From the NCBI GenBank assembly GCA_012513735.1, contig JAAZBR010000222.1, positions 1 to 11,912 of the forward strand: a stretch of DNA of 11,912 nt, written 5' to 3'. The position numbers were made by a program, and so were the translations under genes. This stretch comes from Clostridiales bacterium. GTDB taxonomy: Bacteria; Bacillota; Clostridia; Christensenellales; Aristaeellaceae. Below are positions 1,701 through 11,912 of the stretch, in pieces (position 1 is the stretch's first letter; each line of letters starts with the position of its first letter). The notes under the pieces were generated by a model. That model was not told the origin of the DNA, made no database searches, and saw nothing but the letters and a program-made list of their open reading frames with translations.

Positions 1701-2243
1701 ATGCAGCACCCGTCGCAGCGGGAGGAATTTCTGGCCCAACTGTATACCAACTGCTATGAGCTGCTGGAGAAAATGTGCTATCGCCGCGTGCACTACGATG
1801 CCTCCTACGCTGATGTGGTGGACGATTGTGTGCAAGAGGCCTTTCTGGCCGCCGATGCCCACTACGAGAAGCTAAGCCGCCACCCCAACCCCCAGGGCTG
1901 GCTGGTGCTCACCTGCCAGAACCGCCTGAAGGATGCTCTCAGGCGGGAGAACAGGCGCAGGGCCCGCAGCGGGTTCTCCATTGATGCAGAGGATGCGCCG
2001 CCCCTGGCCGCGGTGGAGGATGCCCTGGATAAATGGGCCGACCAACAGCAGAGCGCCGAGTTGGTGCAGCAGGTGTGCGACCTGCTGTCCCCCAAGGAAC
2101 AGCAGGTCATGCGCAGTTATTTTGTGGAAAGCCTGTCCATGGAGGAGACTGCGCGGCAGCAGGGCAGCACGCTGAGTGCCGTCAAATCCATCATCTACCG
2201 CATCCGGCAGAAAGCCCGGGACGCCCGGGGCAGGGATCCTTAG
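1701..2243 (+). CDS. ECF-type sigma-70 family RNA polymerase sigma factor
   Basis: A 180-residue protein with only regions 2 and 4 of sigma-70, the two-domain plan of extracytoplasmic-function sigma factors. Region 2 covers about residues 20-90 and contains DVVDDCVQEAFLAA followed by the PQGWLVLTCQNRLKDALRRE stretch, equivalent to the core-binding and -10-reading helices. Region 4 covers about 128-175 (LLSPKEQQVMRSYFVE, then the helix-turn-helix SMEETARQQGSTLSAVKSIIYRIRQKAR) and should read the -35 element. The start is set by a strong AGAGGAGGG site 5 bases upstream. The next gene encodes a membrane protein with a short cytoplasmic N-terminal domain, the usual arrangement for a cognate anti-sigma factor. 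Two copies of an AAC-containing motif in the downstream gaps are candidate targets. No clear ECF-like promoter was found upstream of this gene. Confidence 0.9.
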   Translation: MQHPSQREEFLAQLYTNCYELLEKMCYRRVHYDASYADVVDDCVQEAFLAADAHYEKLSRHPNPQGWLVLTCQNRLKDALRRENRRRARSGFSIDAEDAPPLAAVEDALDKWADQQQSAELVQQVCDLLSPKEQQVMRSYFVESLSMEETARQQGSTLSAVKSIIYRIRQKARDARGRDP

Positions 2244-2278
2244 CCGGCGCAACCATTCTGCCCGGTCGCGCACTATAC
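2241..2278 (+). promoter_or_regulatory. Candidate ECF-sigma promoter upstream of the membrane regulator gene
   Basis: TAGCCGGCGCAACCATT begins on the sigma-factor stop codon. Its CAACC core (2250-2254) is followed 16 bases later by CACTATAC (2271-2278). The same arrangement recurs at 4037-4074. ECF promoters typically have an AAC-containing -35 and a short -10 about 16-17 bases further on. Initiation near 2283 would leave a very short leader that begins at the AAAGGAGG ribosome binding site. The evidence is the repeat itself and the equal spacing; there is no direct proof of promoter activity. Confidence 0.4.
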
Positions 2279-2299
2279 AGGTAAAGGAGGAGGAGCGCG

Positions 2300-4036
2300 G
2301 TGAACGCCCAGGAAGCGATGAAGAAGCTGGCGCTGGACAATCTGAAGCGCCAGCTGCGGGACGGCAGCCTGACGCCGGATGAGATGAGCCGGCGGCTTTC
2401 GCGCGCCATTGATGACGAAATCGCCCGGGGTCCCGCCCGGATGGACACCGACCTCATCGCCGCCTGTGAACAACTTTTGTGGCAGCTCCACGCTCCTCAG
2501 ACCAGTGTACTGCCCGCCGGTCGGCGCAAGGCCTATCCTCCCATGCTCGGCAGAACGCCCAGAGCAAAACCCCGGTGGCTGCGTCCCCGCGTGGCCGGCC
2601 TGGCCCTGGCTTTCCTGTGTATGGTGGGCATCGGGGGTCTGGCGCTGCGCTACAGCGCGGAGCTGCGCGGCAGACGTCCTGTGACCCTGAGCCAGGGTAC
2701 CCGGATCCCCGTGGCGGAGACCGCGCGCCTGAGCGTCACCTTGGCCGCCACCGTAGCGCCTACCGTGGCCTTCACCGATTGGCCCACGTCTCCTCCGGTC
2801 ACGCCCAGCCCCACCCCGGAGCCCACGCCCCTTGTGGTGACGGCTGAGCCGCTGGTAGTGCTGCCCCCTGCCCCCACCCAGCAGCCCCGTGCCCGGTACG
2901 TTACCGTGCAGCAGCTTCGGCAGGAGGCCCCCCAGCGCTGGCAGGCAACCTATTCCACCCTGGGCCGCCGGGTGGAGGTGGATGCCCCCATCGTTATTCC
3001 CCAGGTGGACGCCGTGCCCCTGGTAGAGCTGCAGTGGCTGCTGCATGATGGCCCCTCCCTGGAGCGTGCTCTCCGGCCTCTGTTCCCCCAGGCCGCAGTG
3101 GTGGATGTGTACACGCATAATGAGGGCCGCAGCCTGAGCGTCAGCGTGCAGCGGAGTGAAAACAGCCTGCTTATGGGCCCCAGACAGCCAAGCGCCCGTG
3201 TGCGGGTGATGCCCGGTCAGCCTGCCCAGGCCAGCGACTATCCGGCCGATGCCCCCCTGAAGCTGCTCAAGCGTCTGGTGACAACAGCCCAGGGGGATAC
3301 AGAGGGTATCCGCCTGTTGGATCAGGCGGGTACCACCGGTTGGTATCCCTACCGGACGTGGCGCGGCAACGAACAGCCTCCCCGGGCGCCCTATGGCTTC
3401 CTGCAGGATCGGGGCCCGGTTGAAGGGTATGAGCGCGGGCACTATCTGCTGCGTGCCGCCCAGGTGCTTGAGGGCATCCCCCTACTACCCTTCGAGGGTC
3501 AGTACAGCCCGGAGGATCAGGTTTCCTCTGTGGAAGGGTATATCTACCTGGAGGCCTATGACGACAGCGAGTTCCGCCTGTCGATGCAGCTGCTAAGGCA
3601 GACGGGCATCCGCGCCGCCGACTTACCCCTGGTCAGCTTTGACACCCTGCGCCTGCACCTGGAGCAATTGATTGAAAAGGGCTGGCTGCGGGCGGTGGAC
3701 CGCATTGAGCTGGGGTACACCTTGTATTATGCCCAGCCCGTCAGCCCCGGCAAAGAGGAGCAACACGCCACCTTGCTGGCCGTGCCTGTGTGGCGTGTGC
3801 TGGGGCTGCTGATGGACAACCTGGAGCAGGAGCCGGAGGCCTATGCGCTGACCTCCCGGCTGGAGGCTCCCTACGTGGAGTATCGGGCCATGGAGGCGGA
3901 TATGCGCTTCAACGCCCAGACGGGTGAATACATGGAGCATTTTGTTAACCGGATGGCCAACGTAAACCCTGCGGTGCTGACCTGGGAACAGATGGAGGGC
4001 GAGGGAGAGGTGAGCCTGCTGGATCAGGACCGGTAA
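2300..4036 (+). CDS. Single-pass membrane protein with large ectodomain, probable anti-sigma factor
   Basis: A 578-residue protein beginning at GTG behind a purine-rich AAAGGAGG site (2283-2290). Residues 1-95 form a charged, helical cytoplasmic part (MNAQEAMKKLALDNLKRQLR, later DLIAACEQLLWQL near 51-63), the right size and place for a sigma-binding domain. It lacks an evident HxxxCxxC zinc motif. One hydrophobic segment (about 98-117) is preceded by arginines, giving an N-in topology. Residues 150-197 are a Pro/Thr/Ser-rich extracellular linker (PSPTPEPTP). The remaining roughly 380 residues form an ectodomain that I do not recognise. The gene follows the sigma factor by 56 bases and ends in tandem stops (TAATAG). 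Anti-sigma function is inferred from order and topology, not from a recognised family motif. A membrane sensor acting through another partner is the alternative. Confidence 0.65.
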   Translation: MNAQEAMKKLALDNLKRQLRDGSLTPDEMSRRLSRAIDDEIARGPARMDTDLIAACEQLLWQLHAPQTSVLPAGRRKAYPPMLGRTPRAKPRWLRPRVAGLALAFLCMVGIGGLALRYSAELRGRRPVTLSQGTRIPVAETARLSVTLAATVAPTVAFTDWPTSPPVTPSPTPEPTPLVVTAEPLVVLPPAPTQQPRARYVTVQQLRQEAPQRWQATYSTLGRRVEVDAPIVIPQVDAVPLVELQWLLHDGPSLERALRPLFPQAAVVDVYTHNEGRSLSVSVQRSENSLLMGPRQPSARVRVMPGQPAQASDYPADAPLKLLKRLVTTAQGDTEGIRLLDQAGTTGWYPYRTWRGNEQPPRAPYGFLQDRGPVEGYERGHYLLRAAQVLEGIPLLPFEGQYSPEDQVSSVEGYIYLEAYDDSEFRLSMQLLRQTGIRAADLPLVSFDTLRLHLEQLIEKGWLRAVDRIELGYTLYYAQPVSPGKEEQHATLLAVPVWRVLGLLMDNLEQEPEAYALTSRLEAPYVEYRAMEADMRFNAQTGEYMEHFVNRMANVNPAVLTWEQMEGEGEVSLLDQDR

Positions 4037-4074
4037 TAGCGGGCGCAACCTTTGGCGATTATCCTTCGTGATAT
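4037..4074 (+). promoter_or_regulatory. Candidate ECF-sigma promoter upstream of the secreted sensor gene
   Basis: TAGCGGGCGCAACCTTT matches the motif at 2241 in 15 of 17 positions. Its CAACC (4046-4050) is followed after 16 bases by CGTGATAT (4067-4074), sharing C-N3-ATA with the upstream copy. The CGT resembles the -10 core used by several Bacillus ECF sigma factors. Initiation would fall near 4079-4081, at the end of the left arm of the terminator hairpin at 4073-4103. Transcripts from this promoter would therefore lack the outer stem, whereas read-through transcripts would form it. Confidence 0.42.
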
Positions 4075-4109
4075 GGGGTGGAGGGCTGAGGCCCGCACCC
4101 CATTTTTTC
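4073..4109 (+). terminator. Intrinsic terminator between membrane regulator and secreted sensor genes
   Basis: ATGGGGTG (4073-4080) pairs perfectly with CACCCCAT (4096-4103). GGGC (4083-4086) pairs with GCCC (4091-4094) around a TGAG loop, and a run of six T follows at 4103-4108. This is a strong rho-independent terminator for transcription coming from the sigma/membrane-protein genes. It ends only a few bases before the ribosome binding site of the next gene (GGGAGG, 4111-4116). It therefore also works as a potential attenuator for that gene. Confidence 0.82.
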
Positions 4110-4123
4110 AGGGAGGAATTGAT

Positions 4124-6466
4124 ATGCGTAGACAAACAACCCGGGCGCTGCTGATATGCCTGTTGCTGCTGCTGTTGATTGTGCCCGGCGTGGTGGCGGA
4201 GGGGTCGCTGGACGGCCGGCCGGGAACGGTGGATCAGCAGGCGCCGGATATCTTTTTGCCCGAGCAGACGCCGGAGGGGCTGGCAGACCCGGATGCCTGG
4301 CAACAGGGCAGTCCTGCTTCGGTGATCTGCGCCGGGGACGCCTGGTATGCGTTGTACGGGCACAGCCAGGCGGTGGCGGTGTGGCGGCCCGGCATGGACA
4401 ATATCCGCCTGTTTGCCCAACTGCCCCGGCAGGCGGAGGGCATCATCTATGCTGATATGGACGCCGCCCAGAAGGAAATAGCCGCACAGGGGGCGCAGCT
4501 TCTATTTGCCTGGCACAACAAGCCGTATGCCCTCAATGTGTACACCGGCCTCTACGGCATGCTGACCGAAGGAGGCGTTCAATGGGGCCAGGTGAAGCTG
4601 GACCTGAGCGCGCTGATCCCCAGCCTGGAGGGATGGTTCGAGCTGCCGGAGCGCGGCTTTGTACAGGGGGATACGCTGGTGCTCACCCGCTCCGGTTTCA
4701 GTGAGCGCACACTGGAGGAGCAGCAGGACGTGCTGCTGGTAAACCTGCAGGAGGGCAGCGCTCGCAGGCTGAACATGGAGGGCGTGCGGGACGCGGCCGC
4801 CTACAGGGAAGGGCAGATCTTGCTGTTGGTGTGGGCGCAAAAGGAAACCAACAGCCTGTACGCGCTGGATATGCGCACGCTGACCTCCCGGGAGATGCCA
4901 ATCCCCCTGCCCGGGGGCGATGTGGGCGGCATGGCCTGGGATGCAGCCGACGACGCCCTGTATCTGGTGGACACCAACGTGCTGTACATCTGCCGGGCGG
5001 GCGCCGCGCCCGCCCGGGCCAACGCGCTGATCAGCCCCATGCTGTACCTTGCGGCGGGCTTTGTACCGGCACAGGGACAGTACGCGCTGTTCAACCAGGG
5101 GCTGCGCCTCCGCCCGGTGAACCCTGGAGAGGCGAACAGCTATCTGACCGTTCAGCTGACCATGGGGCAGGGCAGCCCGCTGTACCGGGCTTATCAGCGG
5201 GCCAATCCCCAGGCCAGGATCCTGGTGCACCAGGGCACGATACAGCCCCAGCAGATCGTGCAGGCCATGACGGCGGATCCCACAGGGGTGGACTTGTGGG
5301 AGGTGTCCGTGGACGCGGACTACGCGGCCCTGCTGGATAAGGGCTACGCCCTGGACCTGTCCGGGGATGATGTTCTGATGCAGCAGCTTGAGGGGCTGTA
5401 TCCCTGGGCTTTGCAGGCGGTCAAGAACGGGGCGGGCGCGGTGCGCGCAGTGCCCTCCCGGCTGGACGCCGACAAATGGACGGTCAACAAAGCGATGTTT
5501 GAGCAGCACTTCCCGGGCGAGCAGCTTCCCCGCACCTGGACAGAGCTGATGAACATGCTGCTGCGTTTTGAAACCCGCGCGGACGAGTACCCGGATCACA
5601 GCTTCATCAGCCAGGGCAGCTATGCCCGCATGCTGCAGATGATGATGGAAAGCTACCTGCAGCAATATGACGGGGAGCAGGCCATGGACTTTCGCCGCCC
5701 GGAGCTGGTGGAGGCGCTGACGCTATGGCAGCGGGCGCGGGACATGCGCCTGTCCAAAGGGCTGAGCCTGGAGGCCATTGACTATGATGCCTATGGCTTT
5801 GATTCCGGCAGCCAGGAGCCCACCATTTTCTTCGCCGAAGCGGGGGTCAGCGCCATGCCGGCGGACCCGGAGAAGGCCGGCACGGGTACGGGCTTTGATT
5901 GGGTGATGCTGCCGCCGGTTTTTGAAAAGGACGCATCGCCCATGATGCGCGGCTGCCTGTCCGCGCTGGTGGTGGTGAACCCCCAAAGCCCGCGGGCGCG
6001 GGAGGCGCTGGCGCTGCTGCGCTTTGCCGCCAACCGGGAGGCCGACCCGCTGCAGCATATCCTGCTGTATCCGGGGGACAACGCGCCCGTTGAGGATCCT
6101 GATTTTGCCCGACAATTGCAGGAAGCCAAGGACAGCCTGGACGCCCTGCAAAAGAGTTATGACGCCGCCCAAGGCGCCGAAAAGAATGAGCTGGGCTGGA
6201 TGCTCAGCTATAACAAGGAATTGATCGCCAACCCCGAAGCCAACCGCTGGCAGGTATCGCCCAACGCCATTTCACTGTATCGCCGGCAGGCGGAAAACAT
6301 GCGGGTGTTTGCCCGCAGCCGCTATGTGCTGGCCCCCTGGGACAACCCGGTCTTCCGCCAGATGAACAGCCTGTGCGAGCGCTATGTCAGCGAGCAGCTT
6401 CCGCAGGAGGAGTTTATCCGCACCCTGAACGATACCTTCCGGCTGATCTGGCTGGAGAGGGAATGA
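4124..6466 (+). CDS. Secreted protein: propeller-like N-terminal region fused to extracellular solute-binding domain
   Basis: A 780-residue exported protein. The ATG at 4124 is chosen because GGGAGG (4111-4116) lies 7 bases upstream and the signal peptide begins there; an in-frame TTG at 4052 would put 24 extra residues, encoded through the terminator, before it. Residues 1-25 form a signal peptide (RRQ, then a Leu-rich core, probable cleavage after VVA). No lipobox cysteine is visible. Residues about 65-335 contain recurring beta-strand segments (ALYGHSQAVAVW, LLVNLQEGSARRL, SLYALDMRTL, ALYLVDTNVLYIC) suggesting a WD/NHL-like propeller. Residues about 340-650 resemble a family 1 solute-binding protein (PLYRAYQRANPQARI, later LPRTWTELMNMLLRFE), with a helical C-terminal region to 780. 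No transporter permease is adjacent. By inference it is a secreted ligand sensor serving the upstream sigma system. Fold of the N-terminal part is the least certain. Confidence 0.75.
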   Translation: MRRQTTRALLICLLLLLLIVPGVVAEGSLDGRPGTVDQQAPDIFLPEQTPEGLADPDAWQQGSPASVICAGDAWYALYGHSQAVAVWRPGMDNIRLFAQLPRQAEGIIYADMDAAQKEIAAQGAQLLFAWHNKPYALNVYTGLYGMLTEGGVQWGQVKLDLSALIPSLEGWFELPERGFVQGDTLVLTRSGFSERTLEEQQDVLLVNLQEGSARRLNMEGVRDAAAYREGQILLLVWAQKETNSLYALDMRTLTSREMPIPLPGGDVGGMAWDAADDALYLVDTNVLYICRAGAAPARANALISPMLYLAAGFVPAQGQYALFNQGLRLRPVNPGEANSYLTVQLTMGQGSPLYRAYQRANPQARILVHQGTIQPQQIVQAMTADPTGVDLWEVSVDADYAALLDKGYALDLSGDDVLMQQLEGLYPWALQAVKNGAGAVRAVPSRLDADKWTVNKAMFEQHFPGEQLPRTWTELMNMLLRFETRADEYPDHSFISQGSYARMLQMMMESYLQQYDGEQAMDFRRPELVEALTLWQRARDMRLSKGLSLEAIDYDAYGFDSGSQEPTIFFAEAGVSAMPADPEKAGTGTGFDWVMLPPVFEKDASPMMRGCLSALVVVNPQSPRAREALALLRFAANREADPLQHILLYPGDNAPVEDPDFARQLQEAKDSLDALQKSYDAAQGAEKNELGWMLSYNKELIANPEANRWQVSPNAISLYRRQAENMRVFARSRYVLAPWDNPVFRQMNSLCERYVSEQLPQEEFIRTLNDTFRLIWLERE

Positions 6467-6476
6467 GCCCGATCCC

Positions 6477-6515
6477 ATCCGCCCTGCCTGCGGCCCTTCA
6501 ACAGGCGGGGCGGAT
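6477..6515. repeat. Long inverted repeat upstream of the DUF368 gene
   Basis: ATCCGCCCTGCCTG (6477-6490) pairs with CAGGCGGGGCGGAT (6502-6515) over 14 positions, with one T-G wobble and an 11-base loop. It begins 10 bases after the solute-binding gene stop. No T-run follows on either side, so it is not a standard intrinsic terminator. The right arm lies within the spacer of the predicted DUF368 promoter, so it may be an operator, an mRNA 3' protector or a weak terminator. Confidence 0.55.
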
Positions 6516-6525
6516 GTGGTACAAT
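6497..6525 (+). promoter_or_regulatory. Extended -10 promoter for the DUF368 gene
   Basis: TACAAT (6520-6525) matches the sigma-A -10 box in five of six positions. It is directly preceded by TGG, giving the TGn extended -10 element. A poor -35 (TTCAAC, 6497-6502) sits 17 bases upstream, within the loop and right arm of the inverted repeat. Initiation near 6532 would give a leader of about 27 bases carrying AAGGAGG. Confidence 0.5.
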
Positions 6526-6558: not shown

Positions 6559-7425
6559 ATGAACGAAAAAACCCATCCCGGCACCCCGAGCAACGACCGC
6601 GCCCCTGCCCTGATGCTGATGCGGGTGCTACAGGGCACCTTGATCGGCGGCGGCGCCATTTTGCCCGGCGTATCGGGCGGCGTGCTGGCGGTGGTGTTCG
6701 GCATCTATCGCCCCATGATGGAGCTGTTAAGCCACCCCGTGCGGGCGCTGAAGAAGAACCTGTGGCTGTTCATCCCCATGCTGCTCGGCGTGGCCCTGGG
6801 CTTTGTGGGCTTTGCCAAGTTGATGGCGCTGCTGTTTGCCGAGGACTCACCATACCCGGTCAGCCTGTTTGTGGGGTTGATCTTCGGCACCGTGCCCATG
6901 CTGATGAAGACTGCCCGCAGCCAGGGCCGCCACCCCAAAGACCGGACGGCGCTGCTGGTTACCTTTGTGGGTCTGCTGGCGTTTCTGATCTTCATCTCCT
7001 CGGTCAGCAGCCTGACCATCGGACTCAACGTATTCTGGAGCCTGATCTCCGGCGTCATCTGGGGCTTCAGCCTGGTGGTGCCCGGGCTCAGCAGCAGCAG
7101 CATTCTGATCTTCATGGGCCTGTACCGGCAGATCATGGATGCGGTGGGCAGGCTGGATTTTTCGGTCATCGTGCCCCTGTTGGCGGGCATCGGCCTGGTG
7201 GCCGTGCTGTTTGCCAAGCTGGTGGACCGCCTGTACGAAAAGCACTTCAGCCTGGCTAGCCACGCTATCGTAGGTCTGGTGCTGGCCTCCACGCTGATGA
7301 TCATCCCCCGCAGCTACGCCTCCCTGGTCCAGGCGCTGCTGTGCCTGCTGCTGGCAGCCGCCGGGTTTGTGGCCGCCTGGTATCTGAGTGTATGGGGGGA
7401 GAAGGTCAAGCCGTCCGGACAATGA
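6559..7425 (+). CDS. DUF368 family membrane protein, probable undecaprenyl-phosphate translocase (PopT type)
   Basis: A 288-residue polytopic membrane protein with about 7-8 hydrophobic segments. The family's paired motifs are clear: GTLIGGGAILPGVSGGVLAV (26-45) and SLVVPGLSSSSILIFMGLY (171-189), the internally repeated PG[VL]S segments of DUF368. DUF368 proteins have been shown to recycle undecaprenyl phosphate across the membrane for peptidoglycan and other envelope glycan synthesis, with conditional importance at alkaline pH in Vibrio cholerae. The start at 6559 is fixed by AAGGAGG (6548-6554); in-frame codons further upstream overlap the preceding gene and give a hydrophilic extension unlike the family. 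It has its own predicted promoter. No terminator is seen after it, so read-through into the ATPase operon is possible. Family call is firm; substrate is by homology. Confidence 0.9.
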   Translation: MNEKTHPGTPSNDRAPALMLMRVLQGTLIGGGAILPGVSGGVLAVVFGIYRPMMELLSHPVRALKKNLWLFIPMLLGVALGFVGFAKLMALLFAEDSPYPVSLFVGLIFGTVPMLMKTARSQGRHPKDRTALLVTFVGLLAFLIFISSVSSLTIGLNVFWSLISGVIWGFSLVVPGLSSSSILIFMGLYRQIMDAVGRLDFSVIVPLLAGIGLVAVLFAKLVDRLYEKHFSLASHAIVGLVLASTLMIIPRSYASLVQALLCLLLAAAGFVAAWYLSVWGEKVKPSGQ

Positions 7426-7557: not shown

Positions 7558-7881
7558 ATGGCGCTTTCCATTTTAGAGGCTATCCGTGTGGCGGAACAGC
7601 AGGCCGAGCAGGTCACGGCTGAGGCTCAGCAGAATGCGCGCGAGATGATCGACCGGGCGGAAAAGAGCAGCCGCAACCGTGAGCGGGAGAATGAGCTGAA
7701 AAGCCGTGAAAACTACCGCGCGCTGCTGCAGCAGCGCCGCCAGCAGGTAGAGCAGGTGTTGGCGCAGCAGGCGGAGCAGCTCAGGGTACAGCGCGAAGCG
7801 CAGCTTCAGCAAGCCCGCCAGGTGCTGCCCAAGGCAGTGGAATTGATTACAGAGAGGGTCATGCAGCATGGCCATCGTTGA
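7558..7881 (+). CDS. ntpF: V-type ATP synthase peripheral stalk subunit (subunit H/G, NtpF-like)
   Basis: A 107-residue, almost wholly helical, Gln/Glu/Arg-rich protein, as expected for the small coiled-coil subunit that pairs with subunit E in the peripheral stalk of V/A-type ATPases. ALSILEAIRVAEQQAEQV at the N terminus is typical of this family, including the AEQxA pattern. The ATG at 7558 is preferred: an in-frame ATG at 7450 would lie upstream of the predicted transcription start and add a Cys-rich stretch unlike the family. Its 3' end overlaps the subunit I gene by 14 bases, implying coupled translation. Position ahead of I-K-E-C matches ntpF in Enterococcus hirae, which supports the identification more than the low-complexity sequence does. 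Confidence 0.82.
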   Translation: MALSILEAIRVAEQQAEQVTAEAQQNAREMIDRAEKSSRNRERENELKSRENYRALLQQRRQQVEQVLAQQAEQLRVQREAQLQQARQVLPKAVELITERVMQHGHR

Positions 7882-9781
7882 TATGAAGCGCATTCTGCTG
7901 GCCGGTGAGAAGGCCTCGCGGGATGCGTTGCTGCTGCGTCTGCAGCGCATGGGCTGTGTGGAGATCACCCCCTTCGAACTGGAGGAGGAGACTGCCCTTT
8001 CCACCCAGCCGGCCCAGGCGCTGCTGGACCATGTGGAGCAGCGTCTGACCCGCGCCCGCTGGGCAGTGGATCGCCTGACAAGGTACGATAAGACAAAGAG
8101 CAGCATGTTCAGCCCCAAGCCGGTCGCCACGGAGCAACAGATGATGCCAGGCGCCGATGAGCAGCAGCGTCTGGAGGCCCTGATTGACGCCTTGGAGGAT
8201 CTGGAGCGCCGCAGCGGGGAGGCCCGCGGCCTGGAAACCCGCGTTGCCACCCAGCTGGAGCAGTTGGAGCCCTGGCTGGCGCTGGACATTTCGCTGCATG
8301 AAATCAGGGATACGATTACGTCGCGCCAGTATGTGGGCGCCTTGCCGCCTGCCGCGCTGCAAAGCCTGCAGGCGGCGTGGGAGGGGCGCCCCGTCAGCAT
8401 TGAGTTGGTGGGCCAGTCCCGGGATAGCGCGCTGCTGTGGGCAGCAGCTCACGGTTCGGTAGCTGGCGATTTTGCTGATAGTTTGAAGGAAAGCGGCTTT
8501 ACCCCTGCCCAACTGGGCGATTTCACCGGTACCGTAAAGCAAGAATACCAGCGCCTTCAGGGCGAGCGCCGGCAGGCGCAGCAGCAGATGCAGGAGATCG
8601 AAGCTTCCTGGGGGGAGATGGTCACCCATCTGCCTGAGCTGAAGGTGTACCATGATGCCCTCAAAGTGGCTCAGGAGCGCAGGATGGCGGCGGACCGGCT
8701 GATCCACACGCGGGATACCTTCCTGCTGCGCGGCTGGGTGCCCGCCCCGGTGGAACAGAAGGTGCTGGCCATGATCCGGCAGGAGTTTCCCGGCGTTGTG
8801 GCAGAAACCAGCGTGCCCGGGGAAGACGACGAGCCCCCCGTGCTGCTGCACAACAACCGCGTGGTGGCCCCCTTTGAGGCGGTGGTGACCGGCTTTGCCA
8901 TCCCCTCGCCCACCGGCATCGACCCCACGGCGGTGATGATGCCCTTCTTTGCCTGTTTCCTGGGTATGATGATTTCAGACGCCGGCTACGGCCTGATGAT
9001 GGCCATTCTGGTGCCCCTGCTGATCAAGGTGATGAAGCCCGCAAAGGGCGGCCGCAAGCTGTTCTGGATCATGGGCATCGGCGGCCTGTTCACCGTGTTC
9101 TGGGGCTTCATGTACAACACCTGGTTTGGCTTCAACCCCTTGCAGAATCCGCCCCTGGACCCCATCTACCGTCCCATGGAAGTGATGATCCTGTGCCTGG
9201 GCATCGGGGCGCTGCACCTGCTGACTGGCGTGGCCGTGGGCGCCTGGATGAACATCCGCCGCGGTCAGTGGCTGGACGCGGTGTACGACCAGCTCAGCTG
9301 GGTGCTGCTGCTGGCGGGCCTGGGGATGCTGGCGGTGCCCAGTCTGGCCGGTATCGGCCAGTGGGTGGCGCTGGCGGGCGCGCTGCTGATTTTGCTGTTT
9401 GCCGGGCGCAACAAAACCAAAAACCCCTTCAAACGGGTGCTGTCTGGGCTGGGCAGCCTCTATGGGGTGACCAGTTGGCTCAGCGACCTGCTCAGCTACA
9501 TGCGTCTGTTCGGCATGGGGCTGGCTACCGGCGTCATCGGCATGGTCATCAACATTCTGGTGGGCATGGTGATGGACATCGGGCCCATCGGCTGGCCTTT
9601 TGGCATCGTGATCTTCGTAGGCGGCCACCTGTTCAACGCGGGCATCAACATCTTGGGTGCCTATGTACACTCCTGCAGGCTACAGTACATTGAATTCTTT
9701 GGCAAGTTTTACGAGGAGGGTGGCCGGCCTTTCCGCCCGTTGGAGCAAACGCCCCGCTACGTTCGCATTTCCGACGCCTGA
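7868..9781 (+). CDS. ntpI: V-type ATP synthase subunit I (a-subunit, membrane stator)
   Basis: A 637-residue subunit with an N-terminal cytoplasmic half (about 1-340, long helices that anchor the peripheral stalks) and a C-terminal membrane half with about seven hydrophobic segments (from about 353). It forms the ion half-channels against the rotating proteolipid ring. LSYMRLFGMGLATG (542-555) carries R546, matching the essential arginine that displaces the ion from the proteolipid glutamate. HSCRLQYIEFFGKFYEEGGR (601-620) is the conserved C-terminal signature. DAGYGLMMA (371-379) is also characteristic. The start follows GAGAGGG (7852-7858) and overlaps the previous gene. Length is within the usual 620-680 residues. 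A 57-base gap separates it from subunit K, the widest inside the operon. Confidence 0.95.
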   Translation: MAIVDMKRILLAGEKASRDALLLRLQRMGCVEITPFELEEETALSTQPAQALLDHVEQRLTRARWAVDRLTRYDKTKSSMFSPKPVATEQQMMPGADEQQRLEALIDALEDLERRSGEARGLETRVATQLEQLEPWLALDISLHEIRDTITSRQYVGALPPAALQSLQAAWEGRPVSIELVGQSRDSALLWAAAHGSVAGDFADSLKESGFTPAQLGDFTGTVKQEYQRLQGERRQAQQQMQEIEASWGEMVTHLPELKVYHDALKVAQERRMAADRLIHTRDTFLLRGWVPAPVEQKVLAMIRQEFPGVVAETSVPGEDDEPPVLLHNNRVVAPFEAVVTGFAIPSPTGIDPTAVMMPFFACFLGMMISDAGYGLMMAILVPLLIKVMKPAKGGRKLFWIMGIGGLFTVFWGFMYNTWFGFNPLQNPPLDPIYRPMEVMILCLGIGALHLLTGVAVGAWMNIRRGQWLDAVYDQLSWVLLLAGLGMLAVPSLAGIGQWVALAGALLILLFAGRNKTKNPFKRVLSGLGSLYGVTSWLSDLLSYMRLFGMGLATGVIGMVINILVGMVMDIGPIGWPFGIVIFVGGHLFNAGINILGAYVHSCRLQYIEFFGKFYEEGGRPFRPLEQTPRYVRISDA

Positions 9782-9838
9782 GCGCGCGGATTGACGATAG
9801 GATACATTCACCACAGGATAGTGTAGGAGGATTCGACT

Positions 9839-10312
9839 ATGGAATTGGGTCAGGTACTGGCATTGTTTGCAGCGGCGCTTTCCGCATTCCTGGCAGGCAT
9901 GGGCTCGGCGAAGGGCGTGGGCCTGGCGGGACAGACCAACGCCGGCGTATCCACGGAAAACCCGGAGGTCAACTCCAAGCTGCTGGTGCTGCAGCTGCTG
10001 CCGGGCACCCAGGGTATCTATGGCTTTCTGGTGGCCGTTATCATTCTGATCAACACCGGCGTGCTGGGCGGCACCATGAAGGCTGTATCCGTCATGCAGG
10101 GCCTTGCTCTCATTGCCGCCGTGTTGCCTGTGGCCGTTGTGGGCTACTTCTCCGCCATCGACCAGGCCAAGGTTGCCTCCTCCGGCATGCTGATGACAGG
10201 TGAGCATCCGGACATGAGCGGCAAGGCCATCACCATGACCGTCATGGTGGAAACCTATGCCGTGCTGGCGCTGCTGGCCTCGTTCCTGATGGTCATGGCC
10301 ATCCAGGTTTAA
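9839..10312 (+). CDS. ntpK: V-type ATP synthase subunit K (16-kDa proteolipid, rotor ring), Na+-type
   Basis: A 157-residue membrane protein with four transmembrane helices arranged as two c-subunit-like hairpins; multiple copies form the rotor ring. The E. hirae NtpK sodium ligands (L61, T64, Q65, Q110, E139, from memory) correspond here to L54, T57 and Q58 in LLPGTQG, Q109 in SAIDQAKV, and E138 in MVETYAVLA. The L-x2-TQ pattern and the 29-residue Q-to-E spacing are kept. Only the second hairpin carries the carboxylate, as in V-type pumps. Sodium coupling is therefore predicted. The start has a strong GTAGGAGG ribosome binding site, the best in the operon, which suits the need for many copies per complex. 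Confidence 0.95.
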   Translation: MELGQVLALFAAALSAFLAGMGSAKGVGLAGQTNAGVSTENPEVNSKLLVLQLLPGTQGIYGFLVAVIILINTGVLGGTMKAVSVMQGLALIAAVLPVAVVGYFSAIDQAKVASSGMLMTGEHPDMSGKAITMTVMVETYAVLALLASFLMVMAIQV

Positions 10313-10322
10313 GGCAACTGCC

Positions 10323-10925
10323 ATGGATGTGACGCCGATCACCCAAAAAATTCAAGAGAACGCCCGGCTGACGGCAGAGGGATACCTGAACGAAGCCAGG
10401 GCCCGCATTGCCGACCTGCAGGAGAGCACCGACACCCTGATCCGCAAGGCACAGCAGCAGGCTCAGGAGGATGCGCGGCGGGACGGCGATGCCATGGAAA
10501 AGAACATGCGCCGGCTGCACGAGTTGGAGATGCGTAAGCAACTGCTGCAGATGAAGCGCGGCCTGCTGGATGAGGGATTTACCCAGGCCTTGGAGGCGCT
10601 GCGTGCCCAGGACAGCCAGAAGCTGCGGGCGCTGTTTCTGTATCAGACTGTGCAAAGCGCCCAGGGCAATGAGAAGCTGGCCGTAGGCGCCATCAGCCCC
10701 GCGTTTTTTGACGAGTCCTTTGTAAAGGAGGCCAATACGCTGCTGGAGAAAAGCGGCCGGCCGGCCGGGCTGACAGACGGCGGCGAGCGCCGCGAGGGCG
10801 TGTGTGGCGTTATTTTGCAGGGCCAGGGCGTGGAGACCTACTGCACGCTAGAATCGCTGCTGGATGCCCGGCGCGCCGACCTGGAGCCGGCGGTGGCTGG
10901 CATCCTGGGCACTGAGCTGCGCTGA
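10323..10925 (+). CDS. ntpE: V-type ATP synthase subunit E (peripheral stalk)
   Basis: A 200-residue subunit, normal length for the family. Residues 1 to about 95 are a long charged helix (ITQKIQENARLTAEGYLNEA, RKAQQQAQEDARRDGDAMEK) that forms the coiled coil with the small stalk subunit. Residues about 100-200 form the globular head that binds the catalytic subunits. GVCGVILQGQGVETYCTLES (about 159-178), with the following DARRADLEPAVAGIL, is the conserved C-terminal signature. The start lies 10 bases after the subunit K stop, with only a weak AAGG upstream, suggesting translation partly coupled to subunit K. Confidence 0.92.
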   Translation: MDVTPITQKIQENARLTAEGYLNEARARIADLQESTDTLIRKAQQQAQEDARRDGDAMEKNMRRLHELEMRKQLLQMKRGLLDEGFTQALEALRAQDSQKLRALFLYQTVQSAQGNEKLAVGAISPAFFDESFVKEANTLLEKSGRPAGLTDGGERREGVCGVILQGQGVETYCTLESLLDARRADLEPAVAGILGTELR

Positions 10926-10939
10926 GAAAGGAGGCCGCC

Positions 10940-11912
10940 ATGCCACAGGAAAGCGTGCTGTACGCTGTCGGACGGCTGAGGATGCTCAGGCGTCATCTGC
11001 TGACGCCCGCGCAAAAACAGCGGCTGATTGCAGCGCAGGATGCCACAGAGGCGCAGAAGCTTCTGTTGGAATACGGCTACATCACCTCGGAACAGCCCGA
11101 TGTGGAGCAGGCCTCCGTGGACAGGCTGCTGGCTGCCAGCCGCATGGTGCAGCGCCTGACGCCCGATCCCGCTACCACGGACAGTTTTCTGCTGCGCAAC
11201 GACGTGCATAACCTGAAAACCTTGCTGAAGGCGCGCATCCTGCGTGAGGAGCCCGAGGGGCTGAGCGCAGGCGGTACGCTGGATGTAGAAGCTTTGCGCC
11301 ATGCGGTGGCCGAGCACAGCTATGGCCGCCTGCCGGTGCCCCTGAAGGAAACCATGGAGTTGCTGGAGAAGCGCATCGCCATCACCGTGGATCCCATGGA
11401 GATCGACGTGCGGCTGGACCAGGCCATGTACCGCATGATGGCGGAAGGGCTGAAGCACAGCCGGTCGCCCGCCGCCCGGAAGTGGCTGGCAGCCAAGGCG
11501 GATTTTGTCAACCTGCGCAGCTACCTGCGCCTGAAGAATATGCAAGCCCCCCTGGAGTTGAAGGATGTGTTGGTGGAGGGCGGAGACTTTTACAAGGCGT
11601 TCCAGCGCGGGCACGAGACCGGCGATCAGATCGTCAGGCGGGTCAGCGCCGTCTACAGCCAGCAGATTACGCAAACCGCTGTCCGTGCCCTGGAGGACAG
11701 GGCGCAGATCGGCACCCTGGAGCGGCAGATGGAGGGCTATCTCCGTCAGCTTTTTGAAAAGGAGCGCATGAAGCCGGACTCCATGGACGCGGTGATCGAC
11801 TATCTGCTCAGCGTAGAGGAGGAATCCGCCGACGTCCGGCTGATCATGGCGGGCAAGCGCAACGGGCTGTCGCCGGAGGACATCCAGGCGAGGCTGCGGA
11901 GGGGCTATGGAC
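10940..11912 (+). CDS. ntpC: V-type ATP synthase subunit C (central rotor cap), 3' partial
   Basis: An open frame of 324 codons runs off the right edge. It starts at an ATG behind AAAGGAGG (10927-10934), 14 bases after the subunit E stop. The product is all-helical. SFLLRNDVHNLKTLLKARIL, about a quarter of the way in, is the family's DxxNLK signature. Near the end, DAVIDYLLSVEEESADVRLI and the following GKRNGLSPEDIQARLRRGY match the conserved C terminus, so probably only a few codons are missing. Subunit C joins the proteolipid ring to the central rotor shaft (D-F). Genes for subunits F/G, A, B and D are expected immediately downstream, as in the E. hirae order. Confidence 0.93.
   Translation, partial: MPQESVLYAVGRLRMLRRHLLTPAQKQRLIAAQDATEAQKLLLEYGYITSEQPDVEQASVDRLLAASRMVQRLTPDPATTDSFLLRNDVHNLKTLLKARILREEPEGLSAGGTLDVEALRHAVAEHSYGRLPVPLKETMELLEKRIAITVDPMEIDVRLDQAMYRMMAEGLKHSRSPAARKWLAAKADFVNLRSYLRLKNMQAPLELKDVLVEGGDFYKAFQRGHETGDQIVRRVSAVYSQQITQTAVRALEDRAQIGTLERQMEGYLRQLFEKERMKPDSMDAVIDYLLSVEEESADVRLIMAGKRNGLSPEDIQARLRRGYG

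Follow-up and report, generated by a model that had tools for sequence, protein, structure and literature searches.

Three genes at the locus

We analysed a stretch of 11,912 nucleotides from an uncultured Clostridiales bacterium (hereafter the window), which is one contig (JAAZBR010000222.1) of an incomplete genome (G000; 70% complete, 381 contigs; assembly GCA_012513735.1). Three consecutive forward-strand genes within it are the subject of this study: an extracytoplasmic function (ECF) sigma factor (1701-2243), a single-pass membrane protein (2300-4036), and a secreted protein that joins a propeller-like region to a solute-binding domain (4124-6466). A first-pass annotation, made from the sequence letters, had placed these three genes here, and both their positions and their kinds were borne out. 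The sigma factor is a sigma-70 family protein of 180 amino acids that matches TIGR02937 (E 2e-23), Sigma70_r2 (2.9e-8) and Sigma70_r4 (3e-7), and its possession of sigma-70 regions 2 and 4 only, in about 180 residues, makes it a member of the ECF group. No permease is encoded in the window, as judged from its open reading frames and a permease profile, and the locus thus departs from an ABC import system, in which permease genes lie beside the binding protein.

The membrane protein (578 amino acids, GTG start) is a putative anti-sigma factor that may bind and inhibit the sigma factor. It has the anatomy of an anti-sigma factor in the broad sense, as it is encoded directly behind an ECF sigma factor and has a short cytoplasmic domain and one membrane helix. 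The cytoplasmic domain (residues 2-63; 2303-2488) has three predicted helices, based on a profile and a low-confidence model. Its profile matched nine proteins in the loci that we fetched, six of which were its seeds, and a sigma-like frame directly precedes the gene in all nine cases (eight by gene calling and L147 by six-frame search, E 4e-38). Zinc anti-sigma (ZAS) factors carry an HxxxCxxC zinc motif of His and Cys residues in the cytoplasmic domain. The window protein is not of this type, having one His and one Cys in residues 1-95. The transmembrane helix (about residues 96-120; 2585-2659) is the single hydrophobic stretch of the protein, with 19-residue windows that start at residues 96-102 and peak at 98, and the low-confidence model has a helix at residues 97-122. 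Beyond it, residues 141-200 are 42% Pro/Thr. Structure prediction for the secreted and membrane proteins relied on three-row alignments (window, L143 and L144) and gave mean pLDDT values of 46 and 35, so the only features that we took from these models are the arrangement of strands in the propeller region and the cytoplasmic helices.

The secreted protein (780 amino acids) begins with a signal peptide without a lipobox (4124-4198, from the sequence and its hydropathy); a lipobox-like string occurs in 10 of 111 family rows. We place its start at 4124 rather than at 4052 because a ribosome-binding site and the signal peptide fit the former. Residues 66-301 (4319-5026) were modelled as 20 strands, which we read as five four-stranded sheets (10-residue pLDDT means of 37-84, against 46 for the whole model), and the top Foldseek matches for the model are propellers, with fold names read from their titles. 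Although the window protein alone has no Pfam match, a profile built from 11 family rows matches sugar-binding proteins, the best being MsmE (4r6h, E 1.3e-10, profile positions 337-628), and SBP_bac_1 was detected in 4 of the 11 rows at E<=0.1. This profile match to the fold assigns about residues 345-780 (5156-6463) to the type-1 extracellular solute-binding proteins. Signal peptide, strand model, Foldseek and MsmE match together agree with the composition that had been proposed. The family is common: at E<=1e-10 it has matches in 65 of the 150 genomes sampled from the window's bacterial family. In an order-wide search of 396 genomes (two candidates scored per genome), the threshold of E<=1e-40 was reached in 24 genomes, every one of them from that bacterial family. 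Two further copies are encoded in the window's own genome (G000:C160, 2384-4699, and G000:C264, 9804-12336), with no sigma factor beside them.

The DUF6034-like ectodomain

The ectodomain of the membrane protein had been called unrecognised. It can now be placed in a family, since residues 187-562 (2858-3985) are matched at 157 bits by a profile of 45 stand-alone DUF6034-like (D6) proteins of about 400 residues each; this profile excluded the window's genus, but its members had been gathered by an iterated profile that included proteins of the genus. The earlier wording holds for Pfam itself, where DUF6034 (PF19499) stays below its curated cut-off (17.7 bits against 27, E 0.0018). The link to it runs through intermediate D6 proteins, and a profile of 20 members from loci above the DUF6034 cut-off matches the ectodomain weakly (21 bits).

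The D6 domain was found in 35 fetched loci, with a sigma factor in 16, a response-regulator/kinase-like pair in 5, and neither in view in 14, several of the latter being at contig ends. Four of the 16 sigma-bearing loci are those of the window's genus, in which D6 is fused to the N-terminus. Ten others encode a sigma factor, one protein of 353-425 amino acids and then D6 (L160, L161, L163, L164, L165, L168, L169, L171, L172 and L173), and L069 and L075 are variants. Three of the four middle genes that were scanned have weak, sub-cut-off DUF4179 matches, and the Pfam scan gave no DUF4179 match for the middle genes of L069 and L075. Among the two-component loci, both partners are confirmed by Pfam in L153 and the kinase in L150, while L154, L155 and L156 have genes of the same sizes. 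These loci (L153 3252-9102, L150 3256-14386, and L154-L156) carry one to several DUF6034-like secreted proteins behind the response regulator and histidine kinase, and from its sequence an ABC-ATPase-like gene lies nearby in L153 and L150.

Compared with solved structures, D6 has YycI as its sole match at E<=0.5 (E 0.12). Profile-profile alignment (hhalign) to eight YycI proteins gave a probability of 94.4 (E 8.5e-8, 131 columns), whereas two controls with a binding-protein profile reached 38.5, over 42 columns located at the signal peptide, and 2.3. The curated cut-off of the YycI family (PF09648) was not reached by any of 14 D6 rows, one of which matched at E 0.013. The relation to YycI is therefore a good lead, short of a proof of homology.

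Gene order in the genus and in the wider family

Three of the four genomes of the genus that have the membrane protein (G000, G068 and G093) keep the order sigma factor, membrane protein, secreted protein, with protein identities of 41-42% and with different genes upstream. In a fifth genome (G114, 79% complete), no match to the membrane protein was found.

For the wider family, most loci were chosen because they held top-scoring matches to the window proteins, and genome searches scored 2-9 candidates per genome; counts are thus lower bounds, proportions outside the window's clade are rough, and both trees are of a quick kind. In a 97-row tree the window falls in a clade of 14 rows (SH-aLRT 97), and a second tree, to which seven fused rows and L138 were added, keeps this clade (support of 94 for the 14 rows and 98 for an inner 11). 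An ECF sigma factor adjoins the family gene in 9 of the 14 (window, L066, L067, L079, L080, L083, L084, L092 and L105), and in eight of these nine it is upstream and co-directional. The sigma label of L083 was assigned by hand. L067, labelled as having permease and sigma in the tree, is counted as sigma-linked because its permeases are part of another binding-protein operon, which lies past the next gene. By the permease profile, none of the 14 rows has a permease pair of its own; a permease gene in L080 lies on the other strand and is separated from the family member by several genes. The remaining 83 rows divide into 50 linked to permeases, 2 to a sigma factor, 1 to both of these, 1 to D6 and 29 to neither. 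Matches to the sigma profile in L064 and L070, which have response-regulator-like N-termini and lie on the opposite strand, were left uncounted.

How often would a sigma factor be found nearby by chance? In 13 genomes the mean density of sigma region-4 matches is 7 per Mb, and about 1.2% of genes are thus expected to have a same-strand sigma factor within 3.5 kb upstream. Such a sigma factor precedes the family gene in 8 of the 14 clade rows (binomial 1.5e-12 when the rows are treated as unrelated), and 12 of 116 family genes in the fetched loci overall (11 before L095 was added). In L095, which is among the 29 rows linked to neither, six-frame search alone revealed a sigma-like frame (222-767) directly before a signal-peptide family member outside the window's clade.

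The gene between the sigma factor and the family member varies. In the window's genus this gene is of the D6 type, in L084 it matches DUF4367 and in L080 PepSY. The intervening genes of L079, L083, L105 and L116 have no Pfam match, and that of L092 has sub-cut-off matches only.

Elsewhere in the family, L124, L102, L119, L141 and others carry operons, named by eye, of one to three propeller/binding proteins, two permeases and an HlyD-like gene. In L141 a sigma factor and a small anti-sigma-like gene (742-1966) close such an operon.

Anti-sigma-like proteins fused to the binding-protein ectodomain

In genome G084 (L178, 5460-8169), a sigma gene is overlapped by the gene of a 737-amino-acid protein in which some 40 cytoplasmic residues are followed by a membrane helix (from residue 44) and a propeller/binding-protein ectodomain. 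This protein matches SBP_bac_1 (E 3.9e-5; 24.2 bits, with the cut-off at 26) and the A5 profile (E 2.3e-47, model positions 162-756). The family profile used on the fused loci contained the L178 protein itself, and the independent evidence is therefore that of the A5 profile and Pfam. Searching 308 genomes of the bacterial family with the L178 protein (three candidates scored per genome) gave 12 matches in nine genomes at E<=1e-25. Ten of them, from seven genomes in three genera, span the query from residue 7 or earlier to residue 733 or later; of the remaining two, one is partial (G658) and the other is a signal-peptide form beside permeases (G034). A sigma gene lies directly before each of the ten fused genes (listed loci L178, L213-L219 and L222-L224), several of which are closely related, for example those of G552 and G143.

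The fused genes form a clade of their own (support 99), apart from that of the window. It follows that the link between this type of ectodomain and sigma systems most simply arose more than once, as far as the trees suggest, the alternative being loss and regain of permeases. One of the loci, L219 (966-5093), contains a tandem duplication of the sigma and anti-sigma-like genes, in which each sigma copy was read as two pieces.

Regulatory sequence in the gaps

The first-pass annotation also held that the gaps between the three genes share regulatory sequence, and this proved correct: the window has exactly two copies of GGCGCAACC[AT]TT, one in each gap, and the shared element is longer than this and conserved in relatives. 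At up to one mismatch, two matches to this pattern, which was picked after the gaps had been viewed, arose in 1 of 200 shuffles. In the gap between the sigma and membrane-protein genes it forms a promoter-like motif, GGCGCAACC-N16-CACTATA (2246-2277), and the same motif lies in the same gap in G068, G093 and G029. Upstream of the secreted-protein gene, its first half (GGCGCAACCTTT) is present at 4042-4053. A terminator-like hairpin followed by a T run lies in the same gap (4073-4103; -21.6 kcal/mol, z -2.7), although a consensus scan for terminators did not list it.

In the form CAACN15-16GCACTATA, the motif separates the sigma and membrane-protein genes in all four genomes of the genus that have the pair, and it recurs before the secreted-protein gene in G068 and G093. 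Across five genomes of the genus there are six exact matches, all six in the cassette, against one for a reversed control; G114 has none. A form with 15-base spacing, which does not cover the 16-base site of the window, gave five matches at up to three mismatches, again all in the cassette, against four for the control. The exact motif never appeared in 5000 shuffles of each of six gaps, with the limits that the shuffles preserved base composition only and that the motif was derived from the same gaps. We also considered a wider regulon, but the looser pattern CAACN15-17CACTAT has 17 matches in the five genomes (six of them those of the cassette) against 48 for the reversed control, and the other 11 are therefore ascribed to chance. 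If the sigma factor uses the motif as its promoter, the targets visible for it would be the gene of its own anti-sigma factor and, in G068 and G093, that of the sensor.

A possible sensing mechanism

Gene order, domain identities, fused forms behind sigma genes and the confinement of the motif to the cassette in five genomes were computed directly. On this basis, the three genes probably form a self-contained extracytoplasmic sensing module, that is, a ligand-sensing sigma/anti-sigma system into which an importer-type binding protein was recruited. In this scenario, the anti-sigma factor would use its short N-terminal domain to keep the ECF sigma factor at the membrane. The secreted protein would bind an extracellular ligand, for which a carbohydrate is the best guess given the nearest solved relatives, and would dock on the YycI-like D6 ectodomain. 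The ligand may then change the docking contact so that the anti-sigma factor is opened or cleaved and the sigma factor released. Feedback would result from expression, driven by the released sigma factor, of the anti-sigma gene and, in two of the relatives, of the gene for the sensor; any output genes would be expressed likewise.

The first-pass annotation had proposed that a secreted sensor signals through the membrane protein to the sigma factor. We prefer this explanation to the others, chiefly on account of the fused genes. A functional link between the secreted protein and the sigma/anti-sigma pair is supported by the order kept in three of four genomes, the sigma factor beside 9 of the 14 clade rows and the ten fused genes. 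Part of what it had named as refuting, homologues of the three genes that are not neighbours in other genomes, was observed: 50 of the 97 family rows stand beside permeases, and G029 (90% complete) has the sigma factor, the membrane protein and the motif, while the secreted protein neither adjoins them nor occurs in the genome at E<=1e-10. Together with the missing membrane-protein match in G114, this means that the three genes are not an obligate unit and that the secreted protein could be an output.

Several other observations also weigh against this explanation. In five of the 14 clade rows (L073, L085, L086, L087 and L090) the fetched stretch contains no sigma factor, six-frame search included; two of these members begin less than 250 bases from a contig start, and the other three do not. 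In L083, the sigma pair is divergent. The window's own secreted-protein gap holds half a motif followed by the terminator-like hairpin, and the full motif fits there with four mismatches, as many as in the gap upstream of the sigma gene, its second half matching at background level. Neither the region before the sigma gene nor any output gene has a motif site. The structure models of the secreted and membrane proteins yielded no interface information.

What else could explain the locus? The secreted protein may be an output rather than a sensor, with the sigma/anti-sigma pair sensing the envelope through D6 alone and switching on the binding protein. The gene content of G029 fits this idea, as do the motif before the secreted-protein gene in G068 and G093 and the stand-alone D6 proteins, which accompany sigma or two-component genes at loci where no binding protein is in view. 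We nevertheless think it unlikely, given that ten fused genes place the same kind of binding protein as an ectodomain directly behind a sigma gene and that the full motif is missing before the window's secreted-protein gene. The protein might instead be an orphan importer component that feeds ABC permeases encoded elsewhere, its place beside the sigma gene being only regulatory. Permeases do accompany 50 of the 97 family rows, G093 has a permease pair beyond the next gene, with a 412-amino-acid binding protein of its own, and an ABC-ATPase-like gene (named by eye) lies downstream in L073. Against this stand the lack of an own permease pair throughout the window's clade, the absence of permeases from the stretch seen at the locus in G000 and G068, and the fused forms, which are tethered by an N-terminal helix behind a sigma gene, and we regard this explanation as improbable. 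Finally, the genes might be neighbours by chance, as these are draft genomes, the exact three-gene order is seen in three of them only and G029 differs. Such an arrangement without a functional link was already disfavoured and seems very improbable in view of the order kept at about 41% protein identity, the fused forms and the shared motif.

From the perspective of evolution, a broader and more tentative scenario, to which we give slightly less than even chances, is that importer-type propeller/solute-binding proteins were freed from permeases at least twice in this bacterial family and became receptors of ECF sigma factors, either as the fused ectodomain of an anti-sigma factor or as a separate secreted sensor that works via the YycI-like D6 or other ectodomains of anti-sigma factors. 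The only detectable targets of the sigma factor in the window's genus would be its own anti-sigma and sensor genes. If this is true, solute-binding proteins become inputs of ECF sigma switches, and DUF6034, a family of unknown function, would probably serve signalling systems as a regulatory domain outside the cytoplasm. The fused and split versions would make the contact between sensor and anti-sigma factor testable by exchange, and a specific predicted sigma/promoter pair is named here.

Comparison with known systems

The proposed sensing module has parallels among described systems. CnrYXH and NccYXH of Cupriavidus likewise combine an ECF sigma factor, a membrane anti-sigma factor and a separate extracytoplasmic sensor, a likeness by anatomy only; however, their sensor is a small, membrane-anchored metal sensor, whereas here it would be a secreted propeller/solute-binding protein working with a D6 ectodomain. 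In FecI-FecR-FecA, an uptake-type binding protein likewise signals via the ectodomain of an anti-sigma factor to an ECF sigma factor, but FecA is a TonB-dependent transporter and no transporter gene belongs to the locus described here. The RsgI-type anti-sigma factors of Clostridia, with their carbohydrate-binding ectodomains, resemble this system in being anti-sigma factors with an extracellular sugar-sensing part, although the putative sensor here has a solute-binding fold, separate or fused. SigI/RsgI domains did not turn up in general Pfam and NCBIfam scans, which included no search by name. Binding proteins serve as signal receptors in ChvE-VirA and LuxP-LuxQ as well, where the partner is a kinase rather than a sigma/anti-sigma pair. 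YycI and YycH regulate the WalK kinase; D6 has a YycI-like profile and is also encoded behind two-component genes, but the D6 domain here is fused to an anti-sigma-like N-terminus.

Flanking genes

The window as a whole encodes, in order, a GntR-type regulator (its end only), a GH29 fucosidase, the three genes discussed above, a DUF368/PopT transporter and a V-type ATPase operon, with the GntR and V-type ATPase names resting on a reading of the sequence. The upstream fucosidase was ruled out as part of the unit, since G068 and G093 have a different, divergent gene in its place.

The PopT/DUF368 gene (window 6559-7425) lies downstream of the cassette in all three genomes with the secreted protein (G000, G068 and G093), and the window protein is 77% identical to that of L143. 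It was set aside as a member of the unit because of strong hairpins in the intervening gap, found in both gaps that were folded. The one in the window (6474-6519) is very stable and has no T run (-34.7 kcal/mol, z -4.8). The V-type ATPase operon (window 7558-11912) follows PopT/DUF368 in the same three genomes, and in G093 a binding-protein/permease operon is inserted between the two.

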